Positions 18,686 through 57,400 of a DNA stretch of 64,000 nt are shown in pieces; position 1 is the first letter of the stretch, and every line of letters starts with the position of its first letter. The DNA comes from Argopecten irradians (taxonomy: Eukaryota > Mollusca > Bivalvia > Pectinida > Pectinidae). The notes beneath the pieces are model-generated. The model had not been told where the DNA came from, did no database searches, and saw only the letters and a list, made by a program, of their open reading frames with translations. A program made the translations under genes and the position numbers. The stretch is from contig NC_091142.1 in the NCBI RefSeq assembly GCF_041381155.1, forward strand, positions 21,662,362 to 21,726,361, read 5' to 3'.

Positions 18686-20505
18686 TCATTGACTGATCTT
18701 TTCTAATGCTCTCACATATTCTTCATGATGAAGATCAATCAAGTCTGAATTTTCCATAAAAATGTCCAGTAGCTTTCCAAGTGTCGCTGAACAACCTGTT
18801 CTATTTTTCCACTTTATGATTAGTTGCTGTATGAGAGTGGAGCTTGCATACTTTCGATAGTCTGCTTCGATGTGAGACATTTCTACTTCATTAAAGTCCA
18901 GACAAGTGCCAAATGCATGTAGATGTCTTGGTGAAAACGTTTTTGAAAGGAACATGGCCTGTTTTTCTGTGACGGGCCGACTTCTTAATTTTTCTGGAAT
19001 CTCTGGATATCCAGAGTCATCTGTGCAAATAAAATAACAGAAACAGTTTAGACAAATAAACAGTTATCAATAGGCAGACTTTTTGGTTAAAACCTTCCAA
19101 TGTATTTGAATCTAATGCAATCAAAGTGATACACACCCTAAACAGAAACATCTTTTAAATGTAAAACGAGTTTGATAATTTTATAGAGTAGAAAAAAGTT
19201 ATATATGCTTTACTTAAATACATGTACTACTCATCATCATTTTCATAAACAAATTAAATGAATGTTAATTTTCAAAACATAGGTCGTTTTATGTTTCCTG
19301 CTGTCGTCCTAATTACTTTACAGGACTATAACTGTGTCAGATGGCAAAACTTTATTCTTAATTTAACATAGAATACACTGAATCTTACATTTGTTTGATG
19401 TTGTAACCTCATATTAGGCCACTGTAGACATATAGTTTATTAATACATGTGTAATGTTATTGTTTTAGGAAACTTCCTTTTTTTCAGAAACGTAGTGCCT
19501 GGCCATTGACCTATTCCTGTACAATGAAAATTAAAAGTACACACAAATTGAACCCCTTCCATATCCTCTCCGAACAGAAGTTAGTAAATTAATAACCAGG
19601 AAGTGAGAAAATAAATTTCTACTCTAACATTTTGTTCCATTCCCCAGGAGACTCATCCTCGATATTCCAGGGCTTCCGATCACTTACGATCTCTACACCC
19701 CTGGACTATCTCATAGTAAAACTGGAGGCAACAGAATAGAACAGGTAATTTAGTAGTAGTCATTTGATGTACATCAAAAGAGCGTATAACGGTACACTGT
19801 GGTCGACTGTGTGGCTTTGATATTAGTCATCGCTCTCTCTGTAGTCTCCAAAGGAAATCTTTGCTGGCCTGTGATTGGTCAAATGTTTTCGGCTGAACTG
19901 CCTTCAATTTCACTATGAAATAGTCCAGGGGTGTAGAGATCGCTAGTGATCGGAAGCCCTGGAGTATCGAGGATGCAGGAGACTGAAGGTTGGATATACA
20001 TGTACATGTAACAGAAAACAACAAAGGAATTTTGAATTGTTATAAATTAAATGTTTTCCACATCAATTATAACTATAGCAGTACTCAAATTATAGTTAAA
20101 ATATGATAGTAGTCAATCGCTGCTTATCCTTGAGTTACAGTGTATAGCTATATATATATATATATAGTATGTACCTGTTCCTGCTTCCGACACTTGGATT
20201 GGCTTCTTCTCAGTTTCTCTGATTTTCCTTTCTAAAGCATGATAGGCATCGTTACGATTTTCTGCCAACTGTTTTAAAAAGAAATTAAATATTCCTGGTT
20301 TTTTTTCAATTCTTTCATTGAGGAGTTGTATAAGAGTTTTCATTTGTTCCTGTTTTGTTTTCCCATTCATGATTTTCTCGACTACATCATGAATGGTAAG
20401 ATAATCTTCGTCCACAAATCTATCCATTATATCCTCTGCTAGGACTGTTGCAACTATGTCTGAATAATTTTTTTCAATATTCATCTTGAGCTGCTCGTTC
20501 TCCAT
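18686..20505 (-). CDS. CARD + death-domain adaptor (CRADD/RAIDD architecture), copy 1
   Basis: Two coding exons, 20505-20175 and 19020-18686 (TGA), joined by GTACAT/GCACAG, give about 221 residues. Residues 10-95 form a CARD: IVATVLAEDIMDRFVDEDYL, KTKQEQMKTLIQLLNERI, IFNFFLKQLAENRNDAYHAL. The second exon encodes a death domain: LHAFGTCLDFNEVEMSHIEA, LIQQLIIKWKNRTGC, ATLGKLLDIFMENSDLIDL. CARD followed by death domain is the layout of CRADD/RAIDD (199 aa in human), the adaptor linking PIDD1 to caspase-2; mollusc proteins of this shape may also act in innate signalling. The ATG follows an in-exon acceptor (CTTTATAG), 18 bases upstream, so a non-coding first exon is expected near 21404. Orthology to CRADD is not proven; domain assignment is firm. 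Confidence 0.85.
19654..19975. mobile_element. Fold-back transposon (Mutator-like MITE), 9-bp TSD, in intron of copy 1
   Basis: About 77-bp inverted termini (CATCCTCGATA(T/C)TCCAGGGC ... ATAGT(A/G)AAA(C/T)TG(G/A)AGGCA) bound a 322-bp element. The 9-mer CAGGAGACT occurs directly on both sides (19645-19653 and 19976-19984). The homologous intron of copy 2 (31540-31560) lacks the element and has a single site. Long TIRs with 9-bp duplications are the Mutator superfamily hallmark. Confidence 0.75.
20150..20168. repeat. (TA)n microsatellite
   Basis: A short TA run right after the CARD exon donor of copy 1. Confidence 0.8.
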
Positions 20506-21129
20506 AGTCTTTTTGAGATGTTCCTATAAAGAAAATAATTGCATCATTTAATAATTCTTCACAACTACTAAATTGTAAAAAGTTCAAAACAATTGATATT
20601 TGAATAAAAGTGGTACACGAATTTATGTGTAATATATATATAGAAAAAAAACAGTTATTTTTAACAATTTCAATATTAAATTTTGTAAAATGTATATACA
20701 TATGTGTACAAATGTACAGGTATATATGTATTACAAATGTATGTATTCTGTATTTGAATGTTACAGAGTTATCTGGCCTATGTTACATACAATGTAACAT
20801 GTGCAAGTGATTGGATTGGAATACATGGCAGGTCATTTTCGTGCTGCAATGTACATGTACTTAGGCACCTAACAATATTAAAATCAGACAATGGCACAAC
20901 ATTCTCGGAAAAAGAGTGGGCCTTTAAGGCCAAGTGTAACGTCTGTAATGATTATAGGAAAGATGTTATATTAAGCCCTGTGCTATGATACACGTAGTGA
21001 TCATAAATTTCAAATACTACTTTGGGATATGAAATCCATTATACAACAAGTTTCTACGCCTCTTGGGTATTACAAGAAGAAGAATTTTATGTATACAGTA
21101 ACGTTACAAGCACTGTACATGTACACAGG

Positions 21130-21228
21130 CGTCTGCTTCTGGTTTGATAAAATTTAATAACCTACACCCTACTATAGTATAGTAGGGGTAGGATATTTTA
21201 TTTTTCCAAAATTAGATGCAGACGCCTG
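21130..21228. mobile_element. Palindromic MITE, GGCGTCTGC family, copy 2
   Basis: CACAGGCGTCTGCTTCTGG at the left and GATGCAGACGCCTGTG at the right are inverted; flanks carry a direct ACATGTA, a possible 7-bp target duplication. Same family as 7242-7362. It is absent from the homologous promoter region at 46.6 kb, so it inserted after the gene duplication. Confidence 0.7.
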
Positions 21229-21403
21229 TGACATGTACAAGTATATACTTCCTGTTTAAATTGCATATATATCACCACAAAATAAAGACTGTGTACAGTG
21301 TATAAACGGTGTTGTAAATTATCAATTCATTTGCGTGTCAGGTAATTTACATAGAACTGACATCGAAAATCAAGAATAAAAGTCAAAAAAGAAGTAAACA
21401 AAC

Positions 21404-21785: not shown

Positions 21786-24353
21786 GTTTACCGTTCATTC
21801 TCCACTAAATGTACAAATTCCATTATTAAGTGTCCTCTATCAATATCGGGACTTAAAAACCATGTTTGTATATCATGTTTGTTTCACACGTAAAATATAT
21901 TGATTGATCTTCGAAAATAATCAAGTGTTGTTCCTCTGACCAATTAAGATTTTTCTCATCATCACATTAAATATGGCTCTCGTGACGAATTTCGACTGTC
22001 CTCTTAAGCTATAATGTATTTCATAAATCAACTGTGACTAAGGAAATGGGTAAATGTTACATTTTTTTCTATCATATCATAGATATTAGCATACGCAATG
22101 AGAATAGACAAGTATTGGCACACAAAATGCTTAGATATTTTTGATGTAACTCATTTTATCATTGTCACAAACTATGCTGGCAGATACGTTACAAACAAAT
22201 AAAATCATGTACACAATTAATGTATTATCAAATGTCCACGTTTTCTCCGTGATAATGAACTTTAATCTGTATACTAACTTTTACCTTTATGACAAGGACA
22301 CATCCATTAACAATTAAATGGACAGGTGCGATCTAATCTTGAAAATATACATGTTACGCAACGACATCAACAGATACGTTACTACTATGTACTTGATTAC
22401 CTAAGATGCCACTTTCCCACAGAGATAAAGTCACATCGCAGTTTGAAAAGTTTGTGGTTTGGTCGACAAGTCACACGGTGTCATTTAAATGATGAGAGGG
22501 GTTAGTGTCGGTCAGTACGTACGTTACCGACAGATACGTTATGGAAAAATACCCATATCGACAGAAATTCTCACGCTTGTCATAAAACATTCGAAATTAG
22601 CTTAACCACGTGGCAAGTGTCCGAGAGTTTGTCAATAGTTTACAGGCGGGAAGATTCGTTATGTTGCCAGTGTTGGAAAACTCGAAATAAGAAAAACCTT
22701 TACTTTCCTTTAGTATATACCTGTACATAGTAACATATATATACATTTCTGATAATAATCACGTGATTTCTAACACTAGTAAGCTGTATTGATTAAGCTA
22801 TTAGGTATATAATTAATTTTTAAATGTACAAATCACATATCAAAATAGTAACGTATCTGGTATAAAAGATCACGTATCTGTTTGATGAAAGATGTACCGT
22901 TAACTCTAATATTTAGTGTAAAACTAATAAAAATACTGTTACATCGACTAATTCAAATACATTTTATAGCCAGATATTGTTAGAATGTTTGTTATACTAA
23001 TGATACGGTAATGTGATATATAAACATGAAATAACGTATCTGTTTATTTGGTAACGTACCTGTCATATTTGGTAACGGATCTGTACTTTTGTACGTAAAC
23101 CTAATTTGAGTGAACTTTGCTTCATTTGTAGCAATTTGTTTCAGACTAGATATGGTCAGAAAATGTAAGTTTAGGGTTGTTTGTGGCAATCAAGTATGAC
23201 GGAGACTGATACGTTTCGGTGAAGGAAGGCGAGGACAATGAGAATGAATTATTCCTTTGCTTCATGTCAAAAAAACATCAACAAAGGAAAAATGAGGTTT
23301 CGTTGGCCAATAATATCAGAAGAACTGTTTATCATGAGTTATCGCATCTACCTGTCAGCCGTGCGGGTCGTTTTTTTTCCCAATTAAATGACAAGAACGC
23401 TGAAACCATCCGCAGTCAATGAGAATCGGTGTAGACAGATACGTTACCAATATGGTAGAAACATAATCATCTCTTCATCGACGCCGCTTTCAATAGTTTT
23501 GATTTATCGTTTGATAATTTGATGTTGTAGTTTTGACTACAAGTTTTGAAGCAGATTCGTGTTATTGAATTCGTTTATTTTCTAATACTTCATAAAGACA
23601 TATACCAAGAGAACAGATACGTTATCGCTGCTAATTTAGGCAAAAATCATCTAAAGTATTGCAGAGAAGTGAAACCGCTGAAAAGTACGTTTTCTTTAAT
23701 GCATTTTGACGAATTTATGAAACAGAAAAACATAATAGTCCTGTCAGATTTCTTCAGTCATATATTAAGTATGTTGTAACATATACGTTACTGTTTAAAG
23801 CAGGATTTTAATGTCCTATACAGTAATTTGTGATTTATACGAATACAAAATTACTGACATGTACTGATGCAGATAAAGGTACAGTTTGATAATAAGGAAA
23901 AATATAGAAACAAAATACTTTGGTACTATTTTTATATGAAACTATTCGAACACACTTATGAATCATACAAACCAATATTCACAAATGAACTTTTCATAAC
24001 TGCAATTGATAAAGACAAGTTGCTTTCGAGACGGACAAATGGCTTTGAATGGAAAGAAAAGTCCAAAACCAAAGCAAAAATTCAGTTAAAGTGTATATTT
24101 TGTGGCATTTCTAATGACAAATCTCAATTTAGTTCATTTAAACAAAGTCACGTATCTGTTCTTTACCAAAATATGATGGTTGACTGTAACAATTATAACT
24201 TTTCTTTGAGTAAAGATAGGAGCCAGCCCTTTTGGATTTAAAAAGTAGAGATATTTGCCAAACAAATGACAATACATAAGAACTTTGTTTTCAATTTTCA
24301 TATTTTATGTTTTCATTTCTGAAAACATGCAAATTAGTGGAGAATGAACGTTA
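21786..24353. mobile_element. Unclassified DNA-transposon-like segment with dispersed CAGATACGTTAC sites
   Basis: CGTTCATTCTCCACTAA at 21792-21808 recurs as its exact reverse complement at 24334-24350, giving a 2.56-kb segment with 17-bp inverted ends. Within it CAGATACGTTAC or a one/two-base variant occurs at 22181, 22371, 22531, 23435 and 23613 (plus) and at 22848, 22869, 23031, 23051, 23072 and 24147 (minus), with weaker matches at 23206 and 23779. Flanks of the motif are not conserved, so it is a site array and not a tandem repeat. Open frames of 67, 77 and 124 aa at 23219-24241 match nothing I recognise. A clear target duplication was not found. Superfamily unknown. Confidence 0.5.
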
Positions 24354-28249: not shown

Positions 28250-29735
28250 ACAAGAGATTCCAGAGGGATCTTGGCACCCACCATAACTGATCTACATCTA
28301 ACAACGGAAAGAGGGATCTTTTTCTCTGCTTTTCAAACTTTTACTACATACTACATATGAAATTTGAGAAAGATCCTTTTAGTATTTTCTAGTACTTTCT
28401 GAAATATATAGCGGTAACAAACTTTAACTATCAAAATTCAAGATGGTGGCCTGTCGGTCATAAAATGCAATATGCACAACTAGATCCCTAGGGGAACCTG
28501 TGCATGAAATTAGAGACAAATCCCTTCAGGACTCTCTGGGAAATATCGGTAACAGACTTCAATTGTCAAAATCCCAGATGGCGGCCTGTCGGCCAGCTTG
28601 TTCACCGATCGGTCCCTAAATACAATATGCACAACTAGACTCCTAGTGGAACATGCACATGAAATTTAAGACAAATCCCTTGACTACTTTCTGAGAACTA
28701 GCGGCAACAAACTTCAATTGTCAAAATCCAAGATGGCGTCCTGTCGGCCATCTTGTTCACCGATCGGTCCCAAAATGCAATATTCACAATTAGACCCCTA
28801 GGGGAACCTGCACATGAAATTTGATACAAATCCCTTTAGTACTCTCTGGGAAATAACAGTAACAAACTTCAATTTTCAGAATCCAAGATGGTGCCCTGTC
28901 GGCCATCTTGTTCACCGATCGGTCCCAAAATGTAATATGCACAACTAGGGACCTAGGAAAACCTGCACATGAAATTAGAGACAAATCCCTGGACTACTCT
29001 GAGAAATAGCGGCAACAACTTCAATTGTCAAAATCCCAGATGGCGCCCTGTCGGCCATCTTGGACACCGATCGGTCTCAAAATGCAATATGCACAACTAG
29101 ACTCCTAGTGGAACATGCACATGAAATTTAAGACAAATCCCTTGACTACTTTCTGAGAAATAGCGGCAACAAACTTCAATTGTCAAAATCCAAGATGGCG
29201 TCCTGTCGGCCATCTTGTTCACCGATCGGTCCCAAAATGCAATATTCACAAATAGACCCCTAGGGGAACCTGCACATGAAATTTGATACAAATCCCTTTA
29301 GTACTCTCTGGGAAATAACAGTAACAAACTTCAATTTTCAGAATCCAAGATGGTGCCCTGTCGGCCATCTTGTTCACCGATCGGTCCCAAAATGTAATAT
29401 GCACAACTAGGGACCTAGGAAAACCTGCACATGAAATTAGAGACAAATCCCTGGACTACTTTCTGAGAAATAGCGGCAACAAACTTCAGTTGTCAAAATC
29501 CCAGATGGCGTCCTGTCGGCCATCTTGTTCACCGATCAGTCCCAAAATGCCATATGCACAACTAGAATCTAGGGGAACCTTCATGTGAAATTTGAGAAAG
29601 ATTCCTTCAGTTCTTTCTCAGAAATAGCGGTAACAAGAATTGATAACGGACGGAAGGACGGACGGATGACGGACCATGCACGGACGAAAGGCGATTTGAA
29701 TAACCTACCATCTGATGATGGTGGGCTAAAAATCT
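28250..29735. repeat. GATGGTGGGCTA-family repeat with about 150-bp internal units and a 461-bp tandem duplication
   Basis: Each unit repeats AGCGGCAACAAACTTCAATT, CAAGATGGCGTCCTGTCGG, CCATCTTGTTCACCGATCGG and CAATATGCACAACTAG. The block 28637-29097 is repeated almost exactly at 29098-29558, while copy B (37213-38395) has it once. The terminus has GGACGGAAGGACGGACGG and GATGATGGTGGGCTA. Confidence 0.8.
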
Positions 29736-31200
29736 ATGTTTAATTCACATAAAAAATAATATAAAATAACTTGTTTTGCCTTATTAGGAGTTCATTCCAC
29801 ATACATATAGGGGATAGTGCCATGGAATCTTTTCAGAACACAATTAATTATTTTTAATATTTTCATCTCGAAGTTAAATAAGAAGCTCTAACTATGAAAG
29901 TAATGAAGAAAAGTAGATTCATCCTCTCCTGTTTTTAGCTCACCTGGCCCGGTGAGCTTATGTCATGGGCGCGGCGTCCGTCGTCCGTCCGTCCGTCGTC
30001 CGTCCGTCCGTCCGTCAACATTTCCTTTAAATCGCTACTAGTCATAGAGTTCTGCATGGATTGTAACCAAATTTGGCCACAAACATCCTTGGGGGAAGGG
30101 GAACAGAACTTGTATAAATTTTGGCTCTGACCCCCCGGGGGCAGGAGGGGCGGGGCCCAATAGGGGAAATAGAGGTAATCTTATAAATTGCTACTTTTCC
30201 TAGAGTTCTGCATGGATTTTAACCAAATTTGACCAGAAACATCCTTGGGGGAAGGGGAACAGAACTTGTATGAATTTTGGCTCTGATCCCCCGGGGGCAA
30301 GAGGGTGGGGCCCAATAGGGGAAATAGAGGTAAATCCTTTAAATCGCTACTTGTCCTAGAGTTCTGCATGGATTGTAACCAAATTTGGCCAAAAACATCT
30401 TTAGCAGAAGGGGAACAGAACTTGTATAAATCTATGCTCTGACCCCCCCGGGGGCAGGGCCCAATAGGGGAAATAGAGGTAATCTTATAAATTGCTACTT
30501 GTCCTAGAGTTCTGCATGGATTGTAACCAAATTTGACCAGAAACATCCTTAGGGGAAAGAGAATTGAAAATTGTATAAATTTTGGCTCTGACCCCCTGGG
30601 GGCAGGAGGGGCGGGGTCCAATAGGGGAAATAGAGGTAAATCCTGTAAATCGCTAATAGTCATATAGTTCTGCTTGGATTTTAACCAAATTTGGCCCAGA
30701 AACATCCTTGGGGTTAACAGAATTTGTATAAATTTTGGCTTTGACCCCTGGAGCAGAAAGAGTGGGGCCTAATAGGGGAATTCAGAAAAGAAACAATGAA
30801 CTTGAATTCAGAACATTCCTAGGCATTACAAACCAGGTGAGCGATACAGGCCCTCTGGGCCTCTTCTTTATATATAAAAACACCATTCGTCAGCGATGTT
30901 GCATCTTTAATATGAAATATGAAATGTTAAAAAACAAATTTGATAATTTTGAGTCGAAAAAGCTACATATGTATAACCTTAACGTTAATACTACTCAAAA
31001 TCATTTTCAAAAACATTTTTTGTGACGAAATTAATTATTTTCAATATTTGTATCTTGAAGTAAAATAAGATGTTCAAACCTTTCAATGGTGGTAATGGTG
31101 TAAAGTAAGTAACTTTTGTAACTGAAGAAAATTACTGATTCGCCTGATCTTGTTTTTGACTAGAGAAAAATAGCATTCGTCGGCGTTGGAGCATCTTTAA
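29736..31200. mobile_element. Two adjacent MITE fragments (GGAGCATCTTTAA family), first one interrupted
   Basis: Both end in CATTCGTC(A/G)GCG...GCATCTTTAA (30910 and 31200) and share CTTGAAGT(T/A)AAATAAGA and AACTTTTGTAACTGAAGAAA with the complete copy at 48572-48967. The first is split at 29937-30869 by another repeat; in copy B the same fragment (38396-38646) is uninterrupted. Confidence 0.65.
29937..30869 (+). mobile_element. GCTCACCTGGCCC repeat insertion with five internal units
   Basis: It starts AGCTCACCTGGCCCGGTGAG, then GTCCGTCCGTCC runs, then five units of about 155 bp (CTAGAGTTCTGCATGGAT, AACCAAATTTGGCC, AACATCCTTGGGG, GGGGGCAGGAGGGGCGGGGC, AATAGGGGAAATAGAGGTAA), and ends AGGTGAGCGATACAGGCCCT, GGGCCTCTTC. 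The empty site in copy B proves it is a discrete insertion. No transposase; class unknown. Confidence 0.7.
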
Positions 31201-31611
31201 TGAATGTCCTAATTGTACCATACAAGATTATCACTGTGTCAAGCGGCAAACGCCATAGTTAACATAGAAAAGACAGAATCTTTCATTTTTTTTGATGTTA
31301 CCGTGCTCATATTTAACCATTGATACAGAGTTTCATAGTGTTATAATTTGTGTCAGGAAACTTATTTTTTTTATTTTTAGAAACGTAATGCCCCGCAATT
31401 AACCTATTTCTGTAAGATAAAAAAAATAATAAACAAATGGAACCCTTTTTCATGTCTCTCCGGACAGAGGGGTGGGCCAAGTAATTGTAGGAAACCAATA
31501 GCAAAGCAGTGGGAAAATTTCAATTTTAGGATTTTTGTTACATTCCCTGACTGAAGGTTGGATATAATAGAAAACAATTTTTTTTTTAGATATTAACATT
31601 AAATGTTTTCC

Positions 31612-33020
31612 ACATTAGTACTAAGTATAAGGTTTAAAATCTCCTCAGTTAAAAAGAAACTAAACCAATTTTGTGTAAAATGGTAGTGTCTGATCCTGCT
31701 GTGACGAATAGAATGAACAGACGTGAACGACTAGGAGAAATTTTCAAAGATCAAGAGACCTTGTTTGATTCTATCCAAGTCCTTTATCTAAAACTAAAAC
31801 AAATATTTTTATATTCATTGCATGGATTTGCTACCCTTCCAAGTTGGACTGTAGAAATGTATGAAACCGAGCAAATTAGAAATACATGTTATATGTATGT
31901 GCTACTCCCCATGAAGAATATTTTTTAATATTCCTGACAATGTGTCAAATGTTATTCCTCATCTGTCAAAGATGAGCAACATAATGTGACTTCTTATCTA
32001 TTTATTTATCAAATACTGTAACCATGAACCATGCACGACCGAGAGAAGAGGCCCATGAAGACTTAACGGTTATCAGAGTCATGATACAATACTGTAATAA
32101 AGAGTGTCAAAACATATAAAGTGCTTCGATCACAACTATAGGTTGAGAAAACTAGCTGTTCCTAGCTCTAGATCTCAGTGTATGTTACAGTGGTGATCAT
32201 GATCAGTTACTGGTAAAGATATACTGTATATTACAGTGGTTCAGTTACTGGTAAAGCTATGATGTATATTACAGTGGTTTAGTTACTGGTAAAGCTATGA
32301 TGTATATTACAGTGGTTTAGTTACTGGTAAAGCTATGATGTATATTACAGTGGTTTAGTTACTGGTAAAGCTATGATGTATATTACAGTGGTTTAGTTAC
32401 TGGTAAAGCTATGATGTATATTACAGTGGTTTAGTTACTGGTAAAGCTATGATGTATATTACAGTGGTTTAGTTACTGGTAAAGCTATGATGTATATTAC
32501 AGTGTTTTAGTTACTGGTAAAGTTATGATGTATATTACAGTGGTTCAGTTACTGGTAAATCTATACTGTATATTACAGTGGGTACTGGGGCACCTTATTT
32601 CGTCAAATAGTTTGTTTACAAATGAGCCATACGCTAAATGTTGATTTGAGTTACACTATAAAAGTACCATATTCGAAATGATTGAATTTATTAAATCAAA
32701 TCTTGGTTTATGAGTCGGGTATACTCTTCTTTTCATACAACTGGTATTTTGCTTATAATAAGTTGTTTTTCTACATTGATACCTTTGGCCATTTGCCTCC
32801 ATCACCGACTTACAATGTTTTATAACTCATTGTATAGCTAATAATTCCTAGATTCATCCAAATGCGCAAAATTTATCAAATTATAGTTATACATATCACA
32901 GCCGGTCGTATGAATGATGCTTTCAAAAGCTATACACATATTTATAAATAATCTATAGAAATAAACCTTCGCGAATAAGTTCCAAATAACATTTAACAAT
33001 CGCAAAAATCAAACTTAGAG
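31612..33020. other. About 1.4-kb segment present in copy 2 intron but not in copy 1
   Basis: Copy 1 runs straight from TTTTCCACAT to ACTCAAATTATAG (20050-20097), while here about 1.4 kb intervenes. It contains an 85-codon open frame (31671-31928), identical in copy B, that I do not recognise (it includes VTNRMNRRERLGEIFKDQET), and the 38-bp minisatellite. A diverged insertion is likely; origin unknown. Confidence 0.45.
32192..32583. repeat. 38-bp minisatellite, about 10 copies (copy A)
   Basis: Unit AGTTACTGGTAAAGCTATGA + TGTATATTACAGTGGTTT, nearly perfect in the centre, diverged at the edges. Confidence 0.9.
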
Positions 33021-33624
33021 CTATACATTACTCAAATTATAGCTAAAACGATTATTGCTTATTCTGGAATTATTATACATGTGTACCTGTTCCTGTTTCT
33101 GACACTTGGATTGGTTTATACTCGGGTTCTCTGATTTTCATTACCAAGGCATGGTAGGCATCGTTACGATTTTCTGCCAACTGTTTTAAAAAGAAATCAA
33201 ACATTCCTGGTTTGGATTTAATTCTTTCATTGAGGAGTTGTATAAGAGTTGTCATTTGTTCCTGTTTTATCTTCCCATTTATGATTTTCTCGACTACATC
33301 ATGAATGGTCAGATAATCTTCGTCCACAAATCTATCCATTATATCCTCTGCTAGCACCGTTGTAACTATGTCTGCTTGATGTTTTTCAATCTTCCACTTG
33401 AGCTCCTCAGTCTCCATGGTCCTATGAAGAGAATTAAAGAAGAGAATATAAACATTTTATCACTTAATAATTCTTTGCAATATAAAACTGTAAGAAATAT
33501 TACCATTTGTTGTATAAAATGATACATGAATTTATATGTGATATATAGAGATAAAAAAGAAACTTTTGGTAAAGAAATAACATATTTTCAAAATAATGTT
33601 TTGTAAAAATATACATGTTATACT

Positions 33625-33963
33625 CATCCTCGATATATTCCAAGGGTTACTGTCATTGTTTCATTGTCGTTATATCCATCCCCTGGTGTACTTTATATTA
33701 AAACTGAAGCTCTGTGTGCAATCACAGAAGAAAAAAGTAGCTTGGCTCTTTGATGTACATCACAAGAATTGAATAACAGTACACTGTGGTTGACTGTAGC
33801 TTTGAAGTTGGGCGTTGCTCTCTCCGTAATCTTCAAATGGATTCTCTGCAGGACTGTGATTGGCCAGTTCTTTTTTCACCTTAACTGCATTAAGTTTTGC
33901 TATGAAATATTCCAGAGCTGGATATAACAACAGTGATAACAACCACTGGAGTATCGATGATGA
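33625..33963. mobile_element. Fold-back transposon (Mutator-like MITE), diverged copy
   Basis: It starts CATCCTCGATATATTCCA and ends TGGAGTATCGATGATG, with interior matches to 19654-19975 (TTTGATGTACATCA, CACTGTGGT, GATTGGCCAGTT). It lies upstream of the CARD exon of copy 2. The 9-bp duplication is no longer clear. Confidence 0.65.
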
Positions 33964-34136
33964 TATATAAATTTTTAATGTAGATACCTCTGATATCCTA
34001 GATTTAATTAATGGTCACAAGAGTAGAAATACAGTAACTAGCACATTTACTATGTACATTTTAGCTACAATGTATAAGAAACTTACCATTTGATAACTTA
34101 CGTTAAAACATAGTTGTGATAACATCTATCATTGTC

Positions 34137-36128
34137 TCTGTACTTTATCTCCTGGATTATGGGACCATTACCTGTAACTGTCCTATATGTTACCTGTACT
34201 TTATCTCCTGGATTATCGGACCATTACCTGTAACTGTCCTATATGTTACCTGTACTTTATCTCCTGGATTATCGGACCATTACCTGTAACTGTCCTATAT
34301 GTTACCTGTACTTTATCTCCTGGATTATGGGACCATTACCTGTAACTGTCCTATATGTTACCTGTACTTTATCTCCTGGATTATCGGACCATTACCTGTA
34401 ACTGTCCTATATGTTACCTGTACTTTATCTCCTGGATTATGGGACCATTACCTGTAACTGTCCTATATGTTACCTGTACTTTATCTCCTGGATTATGGGA
34501 CCATTACCTGTAACTGTCCTATATGTTACCTGTACTTTATCTCCTGGATTATGGGACCATTACCTGTAACTGTCCTATATGTTACCTGTACTTTATCTCC
34601 TGGATTATGGGACCATTACCTGTAACTGTCCTATATGTTACCTGTACTGTTTATCTCCTGGATTATGGGACCATTACCTGTAACTGTCCTATATGTTACC
34701 TGTACTTTATCCTCCTGTATTATGATTATCGGACCATTACCTGTAACTGTCCTATATGTTACCTGTACTTTATCTCCTGGATTATTTATACTCCTGGATA
34801 TGGTACTTTATCTCCATTTACCTGTAACTGTCCTATATGTTACCTGTACTTTATCTCCTGGATTATGGGACCATTACCTGTAACTGTCCTATATGTTACC
34901 TGTACTTTATCTCCTGGATTATGGGACCATTACCTGTAACTGTCCTATATGTTACCTGTACTTTATCTCCTGGATTATGGGACCATTACCTGTAACTGTC
35001 CTATATGTTACCTGTACTTTATCTCCTGGATTATGGGACCATTACCTGTAACTGTCCTATATGTTACCTGTACTTTATCTCCTGGATTATGGGACCATTA
35101 CCTGTAACTGTCCTATATGTTACCTGTACTTTATCTCCTGGATTATGGGACCATTACCTGTAACTGTCCTATATGTTACCTGTACTTTATCTCCTGGATT
35201 ATGGGACCATTACCTGTAACTGTCCTATATGTTACCTGTACTTTATCTCCTGGATTATGGGACCATTACCTGTAACTGTCCTATATGTTACCTGTACTTT
35301 ATCTCCTGGATTATGGGACCATTACCTGTAACTGTCCTATATGTTACCTGTACTTTATCTCCTGGATTATGGGACCATTACCTGTAACTGTCCTATATGT
35401 TACCTGTACTTTATCTCCTGGATTATGGGACCATTACCTGTAACTGTCCTATATGTTACCTGTACTTTATCTCCTGGATTATGGGACCATTACCTGTAAC
35501 TGTCCTATATGTTCCTGTACTTTATCTCCTGATTATGGGACCATTACCTGTAACTGTCCTATATGTTACCTGTACTTTATCTCCTGGATTATGGGACCAT
35601 TACCTGTAACTGTCCTATATGTTACCTGTACTTTATCTCCTGGATTATGGGACCATTACCTGTAACTGTCCTATATGTTACCTGTACTTTATCTCCTGGA
35701 TTATGGGACCATTACCTGTAACTGTCCTATATGTTACCTGTACTTTATCTCCTGGATTATGGGACCATTACCTGTAACTGTCCTATATGTTACCTGTACT
35801 TTATCTCCTGGATTATGGGACCATTACCTGTAACTGTCCTATATGTTACCTGTACTTTATCTCCTGGATTATGGGACCATTACCTGTAACTGTCCTATAT
35901 GTTACCTGTACTTTATCTCCTGGATTATGGGACCATTACCTGTAACTGTCCTATATGTTACCTGTACTTTATCTCCTGGATTATGGGACCATTACCTGTA
36001 ACTGTCCTATATGTTACCTGTACTTTTATCTCCTGGATTATGGGACCATTACCTGTAACTGTCCTATATGTTACCTGTACTTTATCTCCTGGATTATGGG
36101 ACCATTACCTGTAACTGTCCTATATGTA
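34137..36128. repeat. 56-bp minisatellite, about 35 copies
   Basis: Unit TATCTCCTGGATTATGGGAC + CATTACCTGTAACTGTCCTA + TATGTTACCTGTACTT. Most units differ only by GGG/CGG and there are a few indels. Because 56 is not a multiple of 3, one strand gives repetitive frames in rotation; these are not genes. Confidence 0.95.
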
Positions 36129-37212: not shown

Positions 37213-38395
37213 GATTCCAGTACAAGAGATTCCAGAGGGATCTTGGCACCCACCATAACTGATCTACATCTAACAACGGAAAGAGGGATCTTTTTCTCTG
37301 CTTTTCAAACTTTTACTACATACTACGATATGAATGAAATTTGAGAAAGATCCTTTTAGTACTTTCTAGTACTTTCTGAAATATATAGCGGTAACAAACT
37401 TTAACTATCAAAATTCAAGATGGTGGCCTGTCGGTCATAAAATGCAATATGCACAACTAGATCCCTAGGGGAACCTGTGCATGAAATAAGAGACAAATCC
37501 CTTCAGGACTCTCTGGGAAATATCGGTAACAGACTTCAATTGTCAAAATCCCAGATGGCGCCCTGTCGGCCAGCTTGTTCATCGATCGGTTCCTAAATAC
37601 AATATGCACAACTAGACTCCTAGTGGAACATGCACATGAAATTTAAGACAAATCCCTTGACTACTTTCTGAGAACTAGCGGCAACAAACTTCAATTGTCA
37701 AAATCCAAGATGGCGTCCTGTCGGCCATCTTGTTCACCGATCGGTCCCAAAATGCAATATTCACAATTAGACCCCTAGGGGAACCTGCACATGAAATTTG
37801 ATACAAATCCCTTTAGTACTCTCTGGGAAATAACAGTAACAAACTTCAATTTTCAGAATCCAAGATGGTGCCCTGTCGGCCATCTTGTTCACCGATCGGT
37901 CCCAAAATGTAATATGCACAACTAGGGACGTAGGAAAACCTGCACATGAAATTAGAGACAAATCCCTGGACTACTCTGAGAAATAGCGGCAACAACTTCA
38001 ATTGTCAAAATCCCAGATGGCGCCCTGTCGGCCATCTTGGACACCGATCGGTCTCAAAATGCAATATGCACAACTAGACTCCTAGTGGAACCTGCACATG
38101 AAATTTCAGACAAATCCCTTGACTACTTTCTGAGAAATAGCGGTAACAAACTTCAATTGTCAAAATCCCAGATGGCGTCCTGTCGGCCATCTTGTTCACC
38201 GATCAGTCCCAAAATGCCATATGCACAACTAGACTCTAGGGGAACCTTCATGTGAAATTTGAGAAAGATTCCTTCAGTTCTTTCTGAGAAATAGCGGTAA
38301 CAAGAATTGATAACGGACGGAAGGACGGACGGATGACGGACCATGCACGGACGAAAGGCGATTTGAATAACCTACCACCTGATGATGGTGGGCTA
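37213..38395. repeat. GATGGTGGGCTA-family repeat, copy B
   Basis: Near-identical to 28250-29735 but lacking the 461-bp internal tandem duplication found there. Confidence 0.8.
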
Positions 38396-38936
38396 AAAAT
38401 CTATGTTTAATTCACATAAAAAAATAATATAAAATAACTTGTTTTGCCTTATTAGGAGTTCATTCCACATACATATAGGGCATAGTGCCATGGAATCTTT
38501 TCGGAACACAATTAATTATTTTTAATATTTTCATCTCGAAGTTAAATAAGAAGCTCTAACTATGAAAGTAATGAAGAAAAGTAGATTCATCCTCTCCTGT
38601 TTTTTACATATAAAAACACCATTCGTCAGCGATGTTGCATCTTTAATATGAAATATGAAATGTTAAAAAACAAATTTGATAATTTTGAGTCGAAAAAGCT
38701 ACATATGTATAACCTTAACGTTAATACTACTCAAAATCATTTTCAAAAACATTTTTTGGGATGAAATTAATTATTTTCAATATTTGTATCTTGAAGTAAA
38801 ATAAGATGTTCAAACCTTTCAATGGTGGTAATGGTGTAAAGTAAGTAACTTTTGTAACTGAAGAAAATTACTGATTCGCCTGATCTTGTTTTTGACTAGA
38901 GAAAAATAGCATTCGTCGGCGTTGGAGCATCTTTAA
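38396..38936. mobile_element. Two adjacent MITE fragments, copy B, uninterrupted
   Basis: Equivalent of 29736-31200 without the 0.93-kb insertion; it gives the empty site CTCCTGTTTTTTACATAT. Confidence 0.7.
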
Positions 38937-39934
38937 TGAATGTCCTAATTGTACCATACAAGATTATCACTGTGTCAAGCGGCAAACGCCATAGTTAACA
39001 TAGAAAAGACAGAATCTTTCATTTTTTTGATGTTACCGTGCTCATATTGAACCATTGATACAGAGTTTCATAGTGTTATAATTTGTGTCAGGAAACTTAT
39101 TTTTTTGTTTTTAGAAACGTAATGCCCCGCAATTAACCTATTTCTGTAAGATAAAAAAAATAATAAACAAATGGAACCCTTTTTCATGTCTCTCCGGACA
39201 GAGGGGTGGGCCAAGTAATTGTAGGAAACCAATAGCAAAGCAGTGGGAAAATTTCAATTTTAGGATTTTTGTTACATTCCCTGACTGAAGGTTGGATATA
39301 ACAGAAAACAAATTTTTTTTTTAGATATTAACATTAAATGTTTTCCACATTAGTACTAAGTATAAGGTTTAAAATCTCCTCAGTTAAAAAGAAACTAAAC
39401 CAATTTTGTGTAAAATGGTAGTGTCTGATCCTGCTGTGACGAATAGAATGAACAGACGTGAACGACTAGGAGAAATTTTCAAAGATCAAGAGACCTTGTT
39501 TGATTCTATCCAAGTCCTTTATCTAAAACTAAAACAAATATTTTTATATTCATTGCATGGATTTGCTACCCTTCCAAGTTGGACTGTAGAAATGTATGAA
39601 ACCGAGCAAATTAGAAATACATGTTATATGTATGTGCTACTCCCCATGAAGAATATTTTTTAATATTCCTGTCAATGTGTCAAATGTTATTCCTCATCTG
39701 TCAAAGATGAGCAACATCATGTGACTTCTTATCTATTTATTTATCAAATACTGTAACCATGAACCATATCACGACCGAGAGAAGAGGCCCATGAAGACTT
39801 AACGGTTATCAGAGTCATGATACAATACTGTAATAAAGAGTGTCAACACATATAAAGTGCTTCCATCACAACTATGGGTTGAGAAAACTAGCTGTTCCTA
39901 GCTCTAGATCTCAGTGTATGTTACAGTGGTGATC

Positions 39935-42900
39935 ATGATCAGTTACTGGTAAAGATATACTGTATATTACAGTGGTTCAGTTACTGGTAAAGCTATGATG
40001 TATATTACAGTGGTTTAGTTACTGGTAAAGCTATAGTGTATATTGCAGTGGTTTAGTGAGTTACTGGTAAAGCTATAGTGTATATTGCAGTGGTTTAGTT
40101 ACTGGTAAAGCTATGATGTATATTACAGTAGTTTAGTTACTGGTAAAGCTATGATGTATATTACAACGGTTTAGTTACCGGTAAAGTTATACTGTATATT
40201 ACAGTGTTTCAGTTACTGGTAAAGTTATACTGTATATTACAGTGTTTTAGTTACTGGTAAAGTTATGATGTATATTACAGTGGTTCAGTTACTGGTAAAT
40301 CTATACTGTATATTACAGTGGTTGGATGATGTATATTACAGTGGTTTTTATGTGTTACAGTGGTTTAGTTATTGGGTAAAGCTATGACTGGTTTATATAT
40401 ACAGCTGTAGTCTAGTTACAGTGGGTTTAGTTATGGTTAAAAGCTATGATTTATATCATAGTGGTTGAGTTGATGGTACAGCTATGTATGTTTTATTCAT
40501 CTTTTTTAGTTATGGTAAAGCTATGATGTATATAGTACAGTGGTTTAGTTACTGGTAAAGCTATGTTGTATATTACCGTGGTTTAGTTACTGGTTGTTAA
40601 GATATGATGTATTTACAAGTTTTTGGTCAAAGCTATACTATGTATATGGTAAACAGTGTATTTAGTTACTGGTTAAAGCTATGGATGCTATATTTACAGT
40701 GGTTTAGTTACTGGTAAATACTATGATGTTTATTACAGTGATTCGTTACTGGTAAAGATAGTGTATATTTCATTGGAAAGTGATTTATGATCAGTTTACT
40801 GGGCAAGCTATGATTGCTATATTACAGTGATTTAGTTACATGGTAAAGCTATGATGTATATTACAGTGGGGTTTAGTTTCTGGTAAAGCTATGATGTATA
40901 TTACAGTGGTTTAGTTTACATGGTAAAGCTGTCTATGATGTATATTACAGTGGTTTAGTTACTGTTAAAGCTATGATGTATAGCTACTGGTAAAGGTGAT
41001 AGTTACAGGTGGTTAGTTACTGGTAAAGCTATGAAGTATATTAACACAAGTAGTTTAGTTACTGGTAAAGCTATGATGTATTATACTGTGTTTTAAGTTA
41101 CGAGTGAAGTATGATCGTATATTACAGTAGTTTACTTACTGGTAAAGCTATGATGTATACTTACAGTGGTTTAGTTACTGGTAATAACTATGATGTAATA
41201 TTTACAGTGATTTAGTTACTGGTAAAGCTATGATGTATATTGAACATGTGGTTTAGATTATTGGTATTAAAGATTTAGTTACTGGGAAGCTATGATGTAT
41301 AGTTACAGTGGTTTAGTTTACTGGTAAAGCTATTGATGTGTATATTTCTGTAGTTTTAGTTACCGGTAAAGATTTGATATATATTACAGTGGTTTAGTTA
41401 CTGGTAATGATATGTTGTATATTACAGTGTTTTTAGTTACTGGTAAAGCTATGATGTATATTACAGTGGTTTTGTTACTGGTTATGATGTATAGTTATGG
41501 GTAAAGCTATGACTGTATATTACAGTTGGTTTAGTTACTGGTAAAGCTATGAATGTATATTACAGTGTGTTTAGTTACTGGTAAAAGCTATTGATGAAAA
41601 ATAACAGTAGTTTAGTTACTGGTAAAGGTATGATTTTATATTACATGTTTAGTTTAGTTTGGGGTAACACTTAAAATCTATGTAGTTATGTAAAAGATAT
41701 ATTACAAGTGGTTTAGTTACTGGTAAAGCTATGTATATTGTATACTGGTAAACAGTGAAGTAAATTACAGTTTTAAGTTACTTGGTAAAGCTATGAAATG
41801 TATATAGTTTACTTGTAAAGGCTATGAAGTATATTACAGTATTAGTTACTGGTAAAGCTATGATGTATATTACCGTGGTATTAGTTTATTGGTAAAGCTA
41901 TGATGTATATTACAGTGGTTTAGTTACTGGTAAAGCTATGAATGTATATTACAGCTGGTTTAGTTACTGTGTAAAGCTATGTGTATATTAATTGTTTTAG
42001 TCTAATGTAAATATATGTATATACAGCAGTTGTTTAGTTACTGGTAAAGCTATGATGTATATTACAGTGTTCAGTTACTGGTAAAGCTATGGTGTATATA
42101 TTAAGTGGTTTAATTTACTGGTAAAGCTATGATGTAAAAAACACATTGGTTTAAGTTTACTGTAGCTATGATGGTATATAACAATGGTTTATTTACTGTA
42201 TATTACAAGTGGTTTAGTTACTGGTAAAGCTGATGATGGTTATATTTACAGTGGTTTAGTTACATTGATATTTAGTTACTGTAAAGCTATGATGTATATT
42301 ACAGTGTATTTAGTTACAGGTAAAGCTATGATGTATAATTACAGTGTTCAGTTACTGGTAAAAGCTATGAGTGTATAATGGTAAAGCAGTGTATTTACAG
42401 TAGTTACTGGTAAAGCTATGTTGTATATTACTTAGTGGTTTTCGTTACTGCGGTAAAGCTATGATGTTAGTTACTTATTACAGCTCATGATGCTATATTA
42501 CAGTAGTTACTGGTAAAGCTATATGTATATTACAGTGTTTTTAGTTACTGGTAAAGCTATGATGGTATATTTACAGTGTTTTAGTTACTGTAAAGCTATG
42601 ATGTATATACCAGTCAGTTTACTTACTGGGTAAAGCTTATGATGTATATTACAGTGGTTTAGTTACTGGTAATTAAAGCTATGATGTATATTACATTGAT
42701 TTAAGCTTTCCCGGTAACGCTATGATGTATATTACAGTGGTTACTCATGATCAGTTACTGGCAAAGCTCATATGATGTATATTACAAAAAAACAGTGTTT
42801 TGATTCGTTACTGGTAAAGCTATGATGTATATTACAGTGGGTTTTAGTTACTGGTAAAGCTATGATATGTATATTACAGTAGTTTAGTTACTTGCTAAAG

Positions 42901-43625
42901 CTGATGATGTATATTACAGTGTTTTTTAGGTTACTGGTAAAGCTATGATGTATATTACAGTTAGTTTATTTAGTTACTGGTAAAGCTATGATGTGGTATA
43001 TTACAGTGGTTTAGTTACTGGGTTAAAACTTTGATGTATAGTTAACTGTTATTGAGTAAGCTATGATGTATATTACAGTGGGTTTAGTTACTGGTATAAA
43101 GCTATTGTGTATATTACAGTGGTTTAGATACTGGTAAAAGCTATGATATATATTTACAGTGGTTTAGTTACTGGTAAAGCTATGATGTATATATACAGGG
43201 TTTAGTTACTGGTAAAGCTAGATTGTTTTATTACAGTGGTTTCAGTTACTGGTAAAGCTATGATGTATATATTACAGTGGTGATTTTAGTTACTGGTAAA
43301 GACTATAATTGTTATATTACAGTAGTTTAGTTACTGGTAAAGCTATGATGTATATGTACAGTGGTTTAGTTGTCTGGTAAAGCCTATGATGTTTACTACA
43401 GTGTTTTTAGTTACTGCTAAAGCAATATGTATTATTACAATGTTTATTACAGTGTGTATATCAGTTACTGGTAAAAGCATATGATGTATATTACAGTGGT
43501 TTAGTTAGCTATGATGTATAAAGTGCTATGGAGTGTATATATACAACTGGTTTAGTTACTGGTAAAGCTATGATGTATATCTACAGTGGTTTAGTTACTG
43601 GTAAAGCTATGATTTAATATTTTCT
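39935..43625. repeat. 38-bp minisatellite, about 90 copies, mostly noisy (copy B)
   Basis: The first ten or so units (to about 40330) are clean as in copy A. From there to 43625 almost every unit carries insertions, deletions or doubled bases around AGTTACTGGTAAAGCTATGA and TATATTACAGTGG. Confidence 0.85.
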
Positions 43626-43899
43626 GGGGCGAATAGAGATAAAAAAATGAAACTTTTGGTAAATGTTGATTTGAGTTAACATATAAAACTACCAAATGTA
43701 TTTGAAGTTTTAGTAATGTAAATAATCTTGGTTATGAGTGTATATACTTCTCATCAACTGGATATATTCCTAATTGATTACTGTCATTTGTTTTCACCGA
43801 AAGGTTGTCGTTATAGCCATCCCCTGGTGTACTTTATATTAAAACATGAAGCTCTGTATGTGTGCAATCACAGATGTATAAAAAAGTAGCTTGAATTAA

Positions 43900-45060
43900 C
43901 ATACATTGATGTAATCATCATGTCTCTGTACTTTATCTCCTGAAGATTGAATAACACGAGTACACTGGAATTATTATACTGTGTACCTTAGAAGTTGGGG
44001 TTTAAGTCTGTAACTGCCTCCTGTAATCTTCAAAGGGATTCTCTGCCAGGACTGACCATTACCTGTCAGTTACCTTACTTTCACCTTACCTGTAACTGTC
44101 CTATATGTTACCTGTTTTGCTCCTGGATTATCTGGAACCATTACCTGTCTGTCCTATATGTAGACCTGGATATAATCAACTTTGAACAACAAACCACCTG
44201 TACTTTAGTATGGATTGGGACCTGTAACTGATATCTTCCACTTGATATATGGGACCATTACCTGAACTGTCCTATATGTATGTTAATATTGTAACTGTCC
44301 AATATTACCTGTACATTATCTCCTGGATTTATGTAGATTATGGACCATTACCTGTAACTGTTAATAACCTGAACTTTATCTCCTGGATTATGAGTAATGA
44401 ATAAGTAAACTACTTTATCTCCTGGATTATGGGAACATTACCTGTAGAACTGTCCTCTAATATGTTACATGTACTTTATTCTGGTTTATGGGACCATTAC
44501 CTGTATTAATCTCCTTATTATGGGACCATTACCTGTAACTGTATATAAGTTACCCTTATTTATTCCTGGAGCGAAGATAAGTTATAATAAGTACGTTTAG
44601 TGTACCAAAAATGTAAACTGTCAATTTAACTGACATATCTCCTGTTATGGGGACTTTACCTGTAACTCTATATCTCCTGGACTTATTGGACCATTAACCT
44701 GTCCATATTTACCTGTAATCTCCTGGATATCCCTTAAACTTCCTGTAACTGTAATTTGATCTCCTGGATTATCATGATACCTAATTATGTCCTATATGTT
44801 ACCTGTACTTTACATCTCCTGGATTATGGGACCATTACCTGTAACTGTTTGCCTATATGTTACCTGTACTTTATCTCCTGGATTATGGGACCATTACCTT
44901 GTACCTGTACCATAAATGTCTCCTATACCTGTACTTTATCTCCTGGATTATCGTACCATTACCTGTAACTGTCCTATATGTTACCTGTACTTTATCTCCT
45001 GGATTATCGGACCATTACCTGTGTTACCTGTCCTACATGTTCCCTTTTACTGTCTTATAT
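43900..45060. repeat. 56-bp minisatellite, noisy (copy B)
   Basis: Recognisable TATCTCCTGGATTATGGGAC and CATTACCTGTAACTGTCC units separated by irregular gaps and interleaved with pieces of the fold-back element found at 33625-33963. Confidence 0.75.
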
Positions 45061-54400: not shown

Positions 54401-57400
54401 CGGCAGACATAGACCAGGATTCCCGTTGGTTCCAAAGAAGGTTTAGAGGTCGTTTACATCATGGCTTTCAGACCGGCACTCAAGCAGTTACCACCACCTA
54501 CTGCCAGTCTATGTCAGCCTGAATCGGTTACATGATTAATGGTCAATCCCTGTGTCATGTGACTGGATTCAGTCGCATGACTTATGGTTAATATCTGGGT
54601 CACGTGACTGATCCCAGTCCAGGTTAGTCTTTAGCTCCTAACTGATTACAGTTAGATGGTTAGTAAGATGGTTTCATGTCCGGGAGCTGGTTATGGGTAG
54701 AAATTAATTATTTTTTCATGTTAATATTCATTTCATTGATTTCAATATCTGTACTCTCATATTGCTGAGGAATGATGATGAAGCCCAATTAATTAAAGAC
54801 AAAGTACTGTAATTGCACTTCGTTCGAATAGAAGAATTATTCAAAGTGTTAATGTAGTCCCGCAGAGTTCGGGGTTTAAACGGGCTATGTATGGATTCGA
54901 CCCATTTCGTCAAATCCATTAATTTTTATTTAAGTTTTAAAAGATTAAGAATTTTTATTTAAAATACAAGTTTTTCGTTATCGATGATTCAATTATAACG
55001 GAAGTTTTCTAACTGTGTACGCCTTACGTTGCTATGGTAATCATCCGAAATATACATGGTCGTTTTCCTAAGAAACAATAGAATGCAATCGTGATAAAAC
55101 TTCATATTTACTGCGAATATGTAGGCACTTAAGATAATCTTTAGGGTAAATCTCACATCAGATAACGTGGTAGGGTGTATTCTTACATCAATCTAACATC
55201 AGATAACGTGGTAGGGTGTATTCTTACATCATTCTAACATCAGATAACGTGGTAGGGTGTATTCTTACATCAATCTAACATCAGATAACGTGGTAGGGTG
55301 TATTCTTTCATCAATCTAACATCAGATAACGTGGTAGGGTGTATTCTTACATCATTCTGACATCAGATAACGTGGTAGGGTGTATTATTACATCATTTCT
55401 AACATCAGATAACGTGGTAGGGTGTATTCTTACATCATTCTAACATCAGATAACGTGGTAGGGTGTATTCTTTACATCAATCTAACATCAGATAACGTGG
55501 TAGGGTGTATTATTACATCATTCTAACATCAGATAACGTGGTAGGGTGTATTCTTACATCAATCTAACATCAGATAACGTGGTAGGGTGTATTCTTACAT
55601 CATTCTAACATCAGATAACGTGGTAGGGTGTATTCTTACATCAATCTAACATCAGATAACGTGGTAGGGTGTATTCTTTCATCAATCTAACATCAGATAA
55701 CGTGGTAGGGTGCATTCTTACATCATTCTGACATCAGATAACGTGGTAGGGTGTATTATTACATCATTCTAACATCAGATAACGTGGTAGGGTGTATTCT
55801 TACATCATTCTAACATCAGATAACGTGGTAGGGTGTATTCTTACATCAATCTAACATCAGATAACGTGGTAGGGTGTATTATTACATCATTCTAACATCA
55901 GATAACGTGGTAGGGTGTATTATTACATCATTCTAACATCAGATAACGTGGTAGGGTGTATTCTTACATCAATCTAACATCAGATAACGTGGTAGGGTGT
56001 ATTCTTACATCATTCTAACATCAGATAACGTGGTAGGGTGTATTCTTACATCAATCTAACATCAGATAACGTGGTAGGGTGTATTCTTTCATCAATCTAA
56101 CATCAGATAACGTGGTAGGGTGCATTCTTACATCATTCTGACATCAGATAACGTGGTAGGGTGTATTATTACATCATTCTAACATCAGATAACGTGGTAG
56201 GGTGTATTCTTACATCATTCTAACATCAGATAACGTGGTAGGGTGTATTCTTACATCAATCTAACATCAGATAACGTGGTAGGGTGTATTATTACATCAT
56301 TCTAACATCAGATAACGTGGTAGGGTGTATTCTTACATCATTCTAACATCAGATAACGTGGTAGGGTGTATTCTTACATCATTCTAACATCAGATAACGT
56401 GGTAGGGTATATTCTTACATCATTCTAACATCAGATAACGCGGTAGGGTATATTCTTACATCAATTCTAACATCAGATAACGTGGTAGGGTGTATTCTTA
56501 CATCATTCTGACATCAGATAACGTGGTAGGGTGTATTCTTACATCATTCTAACATCAGATAACGTGGTAGGGTGTATTCTTACATCATTCTCTAACATCA
56601 GATAACGTGGTAGGGTGTATTATTACATCATTCTAACATCAGATAACGTGGTAGGGTGTATTCTTACATCATTCTAACATCAGATAACGTGGTAGGGTGT
56701 ATTCTTACATCATTCTAAACATCAGATAACGTGGTAGGGTATATTCTTACATCGGTGAAACAGTCTCTAGATTGAAAAACAAATCTTAAAGCCGTATAAT
56801 CCTTATCTTTCAGGGTCCGAAAAACCATGAAAATGCAGTTTCAAATGATACGAAACTATCATACAAGTTAATGATTCATTAATCTACACGAATTTCACTG
56901 AATAACATATTTGAAAATTTGGCCTATTTGGGAGATTATATATATATACATACATAGTCCTATAGTCTTTTCGGTTTTAATCCCGTTTCAGTATAAGTAA
57001 ACTTGGCATTAAACATCGATCCCAAGAGAGTGCTAAAGTGTGTGAAACATTTTCATTTCATTCGGTGTCCTTCTACTTCAATGTATTAAATAATACGAAT
57101 ATTATTTACAATGTATAAGTAAAGATATACTGATTGAAAGTCCCGTTATATTTCTAACAGCAAAAATTGAAAGTTTTACAAACTAAAATAGTTCTAAAGA
57201 TTGTTATCTTCCTTCGTTTGTTTTTCAAACGTAAGTATTTTGACAAAAATATTGAAATAAATAGAAACAGAAAACATGCGAGCCTAAAATATTCTGTGAT
57301 TGTACGATCTCGCATCGTAACTAGGTAAATCTGGCCGACAGCAATGGAGAATATAGAACATAATTTTAGTTTTGCCCTCAAGACAAATATTGTGTGTATT

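Follow-up and report, generated by a model that had tools for sequence, protein, structure and literature searches.

A 2.58-kb non-autonomous DNA transposon with an array of a 12-bp word in its interior

The segment at positions 21792-24350 of the window (the whole stretch of DNA that was analysed, 64 kb long) is a copy, 2559 bp in length, of a 2.58-kb non-autonomous DNA transposon, and an array of one 12-bp word, CAGATACGTTAC, is concentrated in the family to which it belongs. The original prediction had described a bounding word and its exact reverse complement 2.5 kb apart; these are a perfect 17-bp pair of terminal inverted repeats, which begin CGTTC. No direct repeat of the 17-bp end was found 4-30 bp away from it. 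The features of the element, apart from the array, are as follows.

21788-21791, left target duplication TTAC, one mismatch relative to the right
21792-24350, whole element, a copy of a non-autonomous DNA transposon that differs from the family majority by 1.2%
21792-21808, plus strand, left terminal inverted repeat, 17 bp, perfect, CGTTCATTCTCCACTAA
23867-24241, plus strand, 124-aa open frame, the longest; open throughout in the window copy only; no Pfam match
24334-24350, minus strand, right terminal inverted repeat, 17 bp, exact reverse complement of CGTTCATTCTCCACTAA
24351-24354, right target duplication TTAT of the window copy

About 560 bp before the element, at 21124-21230, lies a hairpin with 53-nt arms that are 72% complementary and have 1 nt between them.

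By the character of its sequence the host looks like an animal, perhaps a bivalve. The genome from which the window comes (846 Mb, 1508 contigs) has 274 places within two mismatches of the 17-mer end, against 84 for the reversed control. With longer end words and up to three mismatches, the right end is found 84 times where its control gives 0, and the left end 81 times where its control gives 1. The exact 17-bp end is nowhere followed by C or G, and ends matching the first 14 bases only are found at four places. When ends within 15 kb of each other were paired, 56 pairs resulted and 25 left and 28 right ends remained unpaired, so the proposed check, whether a second copy has both ends, is answered many times over genome-wide. 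Thirty of the 56 pairs are 2530-2610 bp long, 12 are shorter and 14 longer, and the commonest length of the family is about 2.58 kb. Among the longer pairs are C374 (9.9 kb) and C9 (6.9 kb), and the longer copies that were read are ordinary copies with inserts, that of L040 holding a LINE-like frame (named by eye). A blastn search with the window copy gave at least 49 matches (40 of 145 candidates scored), the near-full-length ones being 94-97% identical.

Alignment of full-length copies had been proposed as the way to find the borders and the target duplication. A duplication of 4 bp is exact in 28 of the 40 end pairs examined and has at most one mismatch in 33. The remainder comprise five with one mismatch (including the window copy, TTAC against TTAT) and seven with three or four; an identical duplication of 5 bp or longer is seen in none of the 40. 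Two segmental duplicates are included in these pairs, L031 (of L029, both exact) and L058 (of L040, both not), and the independent count is 27 of 38. A pyrimidine (C or T) precedes 26 of the 28 exact duplications and a purine (G or A) follows 26, and among the 112 duplicated bases 105 are A or T, giving a symmetric, AT-rich YWWWWR target. Terminal inverted repeats are therefore common to many copies, and the target duplication has a fixed length of 4 bp. Together with the lack of any gene seen, the paired ends and the duplication support the original suggestion of a non-autonomous transposon, and by established knowledge such ends, duplication and copies imply cut-and-paste movement.

The word CAGATACGTTAC is matched with at most one mismatch at 11 places in the element and with at most two at 13; in the remaining 61,441 bp of the window the corresponding counts are 0 and 10. 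The 23 places within two mismatches in the 64 kb window compare with a shuffled mean of 4.49 and a largest value of 10 in 100 shuffles, and 200 Markov-simulated elements have a mean of 0.015 places (maximum 1) within one mismatch and 0.245 (maximum 2) within two; against these simulated elements the 11 sites are far beyond chance. Both the claim of at least 11 good matches and the claim that the word was not seen elsewhere in the 64 kb are thus borne out at one mismatch, although the strands, given before as five plus and six minus, are on recounting six plus (22181, 22371, 22531, 23436, 23614 and 23780) and five minus (22848, 23031, 23051, 23072 and 24147). The 13 places, with the number of aligned copies in which each is within one mismatch of the word, are listed below.

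22181-22192, plus strand, site with 0 mismatches; 29 of 33 copies
22371-22382, plus strand, site with 0 mismatches; 33 of 33 copies
22531-22542, plus strand, site with 1 mismatch; 31 of 34 copies
22848-22859, minus strand, site with 0 mismatches; 31 of 34 copies
22869-22880, minus strand, weak site with 2 mismatches, the neighbouring site being 21 bp away; 1 of 33 copies, usually 2 mismatches
23031-23042, minus strand, site with 1 mismatch; 31 of 34 copies
23051-23062, minus strand, site with 1 mismatch, in a local 20-21 bp tandem repeat at 23032-23085; 32 of 34 copies
23072-23083, minus strand, site with 1 mismatch, in the tandem repeat at 23032-23085; 33 of 34 copies
23206-23217, plus strand, weak site with 2 mismatches; 0 of 34 copies, mostly 2 mismatches
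23436-23447, plus strand, site with 0 mismatches; 31 of 33 copies
23614-23625, plus strand, site with 1 mismatch; 31 of 33 copies
23780-23791, plus strand, site with 1 mismatch; 28 of 34 copies
24147-24158, minus strand, site with 1 mismatch; 28 of 33 copies

Along the array the strands run three plus, five minus, three plus and one minus, not counting the weak site at 23206. The outer 389 bp on the left and 192 bp on the right are without sites, and the array crosses the centre, its sites extending to the element middle about 1.26 kb from either end. Preferred bases reach about two positions outwards on one side of the 12-mer; in 14 sites, including a degenerate one at 22651, R prevails at position -2 and A at position -1, and the final base is C or T, which gives the 14-mer RACAGATACGTTAY. 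Same-strand clusters fit a spacing of about 179 bp or twice that (periodogram P value 0.011, periods 120-260), a period that rests on clusters merged by hand at our own choice.

The flanks of the sites had been called unrelated, and this is correct for nine of them, whose similarity over 75 bp on each side (20.0 and 20.9) is like that of random element segments (19.8 and 19.7), with shuffled flanks at 18.1 (SD 1.1) and 19.6 (SD 1.2); the three sites at 23031-23083 lie in the tandem repeat. Since the site flanks resemble random element segments, no decayed satellite is visible, the short repeat at 23032-23085 excepted. Some pairs of sites are alike over up to about 20-24 bp (families D10 and D14).

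Across the genome, the exact 12-mer CAGATACGTTAC is present at 330 places compared with 70 for its reversed control, and the exact 14-mer RACAGATACGTTAY at 349 compared with 32. It had been asked beforehand whether the 12-mer is evenly spread, and it is not: among the 100 matches listed of the 330, 88 are no more than 3.5 kb from a family end and the 12 elsewhere are all single, and among the 100 listed of the 349 for the 14-mer, 95 are within that distance and five are isolated. The 14-mer count was made without the ends on C5, whose four ends are more than 1 Mb from its one listed 14-mer place, and beyond the 100 matches listed for each word the rest of the genome is judged from the counts alone. 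A second array of the exact word away from family ends is absent among the 100 matches listed of either word. The exact 12-mer had no match in the literature searched; Repbase and Dfam, which were outside that search, may catalogue the family.

The 124-aa open frame was considered as a gene and rejected, since an internal stop or frameshift is present in 33 of 33 other aligned copies and its openness is an accident of a lost stop. It is matched by 126 genome fragments, 10 of them stop-free, and all 124 residues are covered by the window copy only. Several of five copies examined have frames of 74-94 aa at matching positions, six read-through frame pieces (parts of six frames) have no Pfam match at E-values up to 1, and no long unspliced frame is common to the copies examined. 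No transposase was found in the family copies examined, the shared frames being at most 74-94 aa (five copies; six frame pieces scanned in part, unspliced), as is expected of a non-autonomous element. Two profiles were used in looking for a partner, DUF6589, which was a guess, and XPG_I, which was our own choice to represent the nuclease of an Academ partner. None of the 87 DUF6589 matches is inside the 56 paired elements, with one (C9:32012727) located 4.1 kb beyond a family end, and none of the eight XPG_I matches is in a paired element or within 15 kb of a family end. We note that the 87 DUF6589 places in this genome (E-value up to 0.001) are in many cases in long open frames, and that there are none in 14 control genomes.

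The alignment comprises 34 copies (L020, which has an insert, was left out), of which 32 were used for rate estimates, L031 and L032 being dropped as close relatives of L029. Of these, 24 are less than 2% from the majority and the rest are at 2-9%. A tree built from 29 copies, from which L048, L053 and L054 were also left out as partial or divergent, shows several supported clades of full-length copies. The closest pair of copies is 0.55% apart and has different flanks, which suggests fairly recent activity. All 12 pairs shorter than 2530 bp differ in length, and the only deletion junction that recurs (in L040 and L058) has identical flanks and corresponds to a segmental duplicate; thus no shortened form has been seen multiplied by transposition, as judged from paired ends, with the unpaired ends read in part. 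The keeping of full length across clades hints that the interior of the element matters, although a limited number of bursts could equally explain the lack of multiplied short forms. At L044 (501-9994; G000:C3:19681457 onward) there is a 4.6-kb tandem repeat that includes a 130-aa open frame and a truncated copy of the family; here a piece of the transposon has become tandemly arrayed.

Variants shared by at least two copies number 10 in 12 sites, against a random mean of 16, and a count at least as low arises in 8.4% of 2000 random placements; for private variants the sites show no difference (32% of random placements do as well). Among seven single-copy comparisons no test of site conservation was significant, the lowest P value being 0.14. 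In the older copy L059 (82% identity), non-CpG changes affect 23 of 120 site positions against 230 of 2071 in the rest, and CpG changes 6 of 24 against 14 of 102, with the first sites of this copy aligning poorly. Such tests are weak either way because dead copies drift freely.

We tentatively prefer, while stopping a little short of calling it probable, the explanation that this is a cut-and-paste element in which a single protein, acting in trans and likely encoded by a partner, recognises the 12-14-bp word and raises mobilisation. The CAGATACGTTAC/RACAGATACGTTAY word would be bound by this protein, many molecules of which would assemble on the element at the roughly dozen sites of the array, and the gathered protein may raise mobilisation much as TNPA does on En/Spm, yet from the interior rather than from subterminal ends; the likeliest candidate would be a transposase or helper encoded by an unseen autonomous partner. 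That one protein binds, that it comes from a partner rather than the host and that it has a role in mobilisation are all matters that we infer. The ends, the pairs and the 4-bp duplication establish the transposon, and the motif excess is centred on its family. The number of sites (11 against a simulated 0.015), the nine flanks that are no more alike than random segments, and the interior kept in full-length copies of several clades with no shortened form seen multiplied are all consistent with a bound array, as is the rarity of shared variants in the sites (10 against a mean of 16), though 8.4% of placements match it. It counts against the preferred explanation that no transposase or partner was found, and that a partner using the same protein should itself carry the array, with none seen among the matches listed. 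Moreover, the outermost 389 and 192 bp lack sites and the array extends to the middle, whereas plant CACTA arrays start near the ends, and the sites are not significantly conserved, being in L059 more changed than the rest.

The word could instead be the site of a host DNA-binding factor in the same transposon, the array acting as a spread enhancer, boundary or chromatin opener. We regard this as possible but rather unlikely: sites that fill the centre, far from the ends, would suit such a role, as would the cluster spacing of about 179 bp or double, which is close to a nucleosome repeat, but the P value of that period depends on our own choice of clusters, and host sites should occur genome-wide. 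Of the 100 matches listed for each word, five (14-mer) and 12 (12-mer, single) lie off family ends, numbers in keeping with those of the reversed controls (32 and 70 genome-wide). It is unlikelier still that the array lacks present function and is a relic left by the assembly of the interior, through local duplication, gene conversion or decay of a satellite. The three sites in the 20-21 bp tandem repeat at 23031-23083, the site pairs alike over up to about 20-24 bp, the upstream flanks (20.0 against 18.1, SD 1.1, when shuffled) and conservation tests that fall short of significance or run contrary (L059) all agree with a relic, but the nine flanks (20.0 and 20.9) are no closer than random segments (19.8 and 19.7), both strands are used and the word is found within two mismatches at 13 places. 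We give only slight credence to the idea that mobility or spread depends on the interior array at chromatin scale (clusters about 179 bp apart, both strands) instead of on subterminal sites, which would make it an internal eukaryotic transposition enhancer and the partner a member of an undescribed superfamily. Membership of the En/Spm (CACTA) group, in which repeated words of 12 bp and more recur, is very improbable given ends that are CGTTC and not CACTA, a duplication of 4 bp and not 3, and sites that are not subterminal. That the segment is an immobile segmental or satellite repeat is barely credible, for in spite of a few segmental duplicates (L029 and L031; L040 and L058) and the 4.6-kb tandem array at L044, the 4-bp duplication is exact in 28 of 40 pairs and the flanks differ, those named duplicates excepted.

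The window beyond the element contains several repeats. An apparent duplicated block of about 9 kb occupies 28250-36127 and 37222-45045, with 97.7% identity between 30860-32581 and 38596-40321 and 96.9% between 28250-29327 and 37222-38303; both copies hold 155-bp, 38-bp and 56-bp tandem repeats in unequal copy numbers. The 38-bp repeat is expanded and degenerate at 39941-43620 (mostly about 65-70% matches, many indels, GC skew 0.3-0.5), and its sister array at 32205-32581 is 96% regular. A 41-bp tandem repeat at 55151-56753 has 39 copies with 95% matches. On the minus strand, an open frame at 20113-20505 has a weak match to the CARD domain (E-value 1.1e-4, 22.6 bits; Pfam cut-off 23.9).

Non-coding transposons are usually regarded as bare ends around filler. 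Here the family branched with its interior still at full length, and that interior is densely set with a single word seldom met in the rest of the genome. Should a protein bind the word, each of some tens of copies would spread a cluster of binding sites ready for it, and the family would be a simple system in which to ask whether mobility is governed by interior sequence.

The presence of many copies of one short word in a transposon is a likeness to En/Spm (CACTA). According to PMC2613891 the short word of En-1 is 12 bp and non-autonomous En/Spm copies are moved in trans, and the repeats of soybean Tgmt are described as lying within 159 and 732 bp of the ends. The original analogy with En/Spm stands for the array of a 12-bp word and fails for membership: CGTTC replaces CACTA at the ends, the target duplication is 4 bp and not 3-bp, and the nearest sites are 389 and 192 bp in, with the word repeated through the centre rather than subterminally. 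The accompanying remark that the sites also fill the centre was well founded, since the array runs to the element middle. The parallel is one of design only, and the element is outside the En/Spm group. An internal cluster of sites also recalls the enhancer of phage Mu, a non-terminal protein-site cluster that aids transposition, although host and system are unrelated and the function here is putative. Inverted ends, a target duplication, no coding seen and tens of copies are shared with miniature and other non-autonomous TIR elements; a MITE, however, is short, under about 0.8 kb, whereas the commonest length of this family is about 2.58 kb, mostly constant full length rather than short derivatives. 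By duplication length, the Academ (AcademX), Sola1/Sola2 and Ginger superfamilies are possible sources of the partner, the duplication of Sola being 4 bp. The duplication is given as 4 bp for Ginger1 and 4-5 bp for Ginger2 (PMC10045372, PMC2836005), and Ginger ends are described as TGTNR, their inverted repeats being about 40-270 bp long and their targets different (PMC2836005). Unlike Ginger1 and Ginger2, the element has CGTTC ends and inverted repeats of 17 bp. No transposase of the Academ or Sola kind was tied to this family. Its 4-bp duplication does fit the 3-4 bp described for AcademX (PMC10045372), and Academ and Sola are both recorded in bivalves (PMC10294476).
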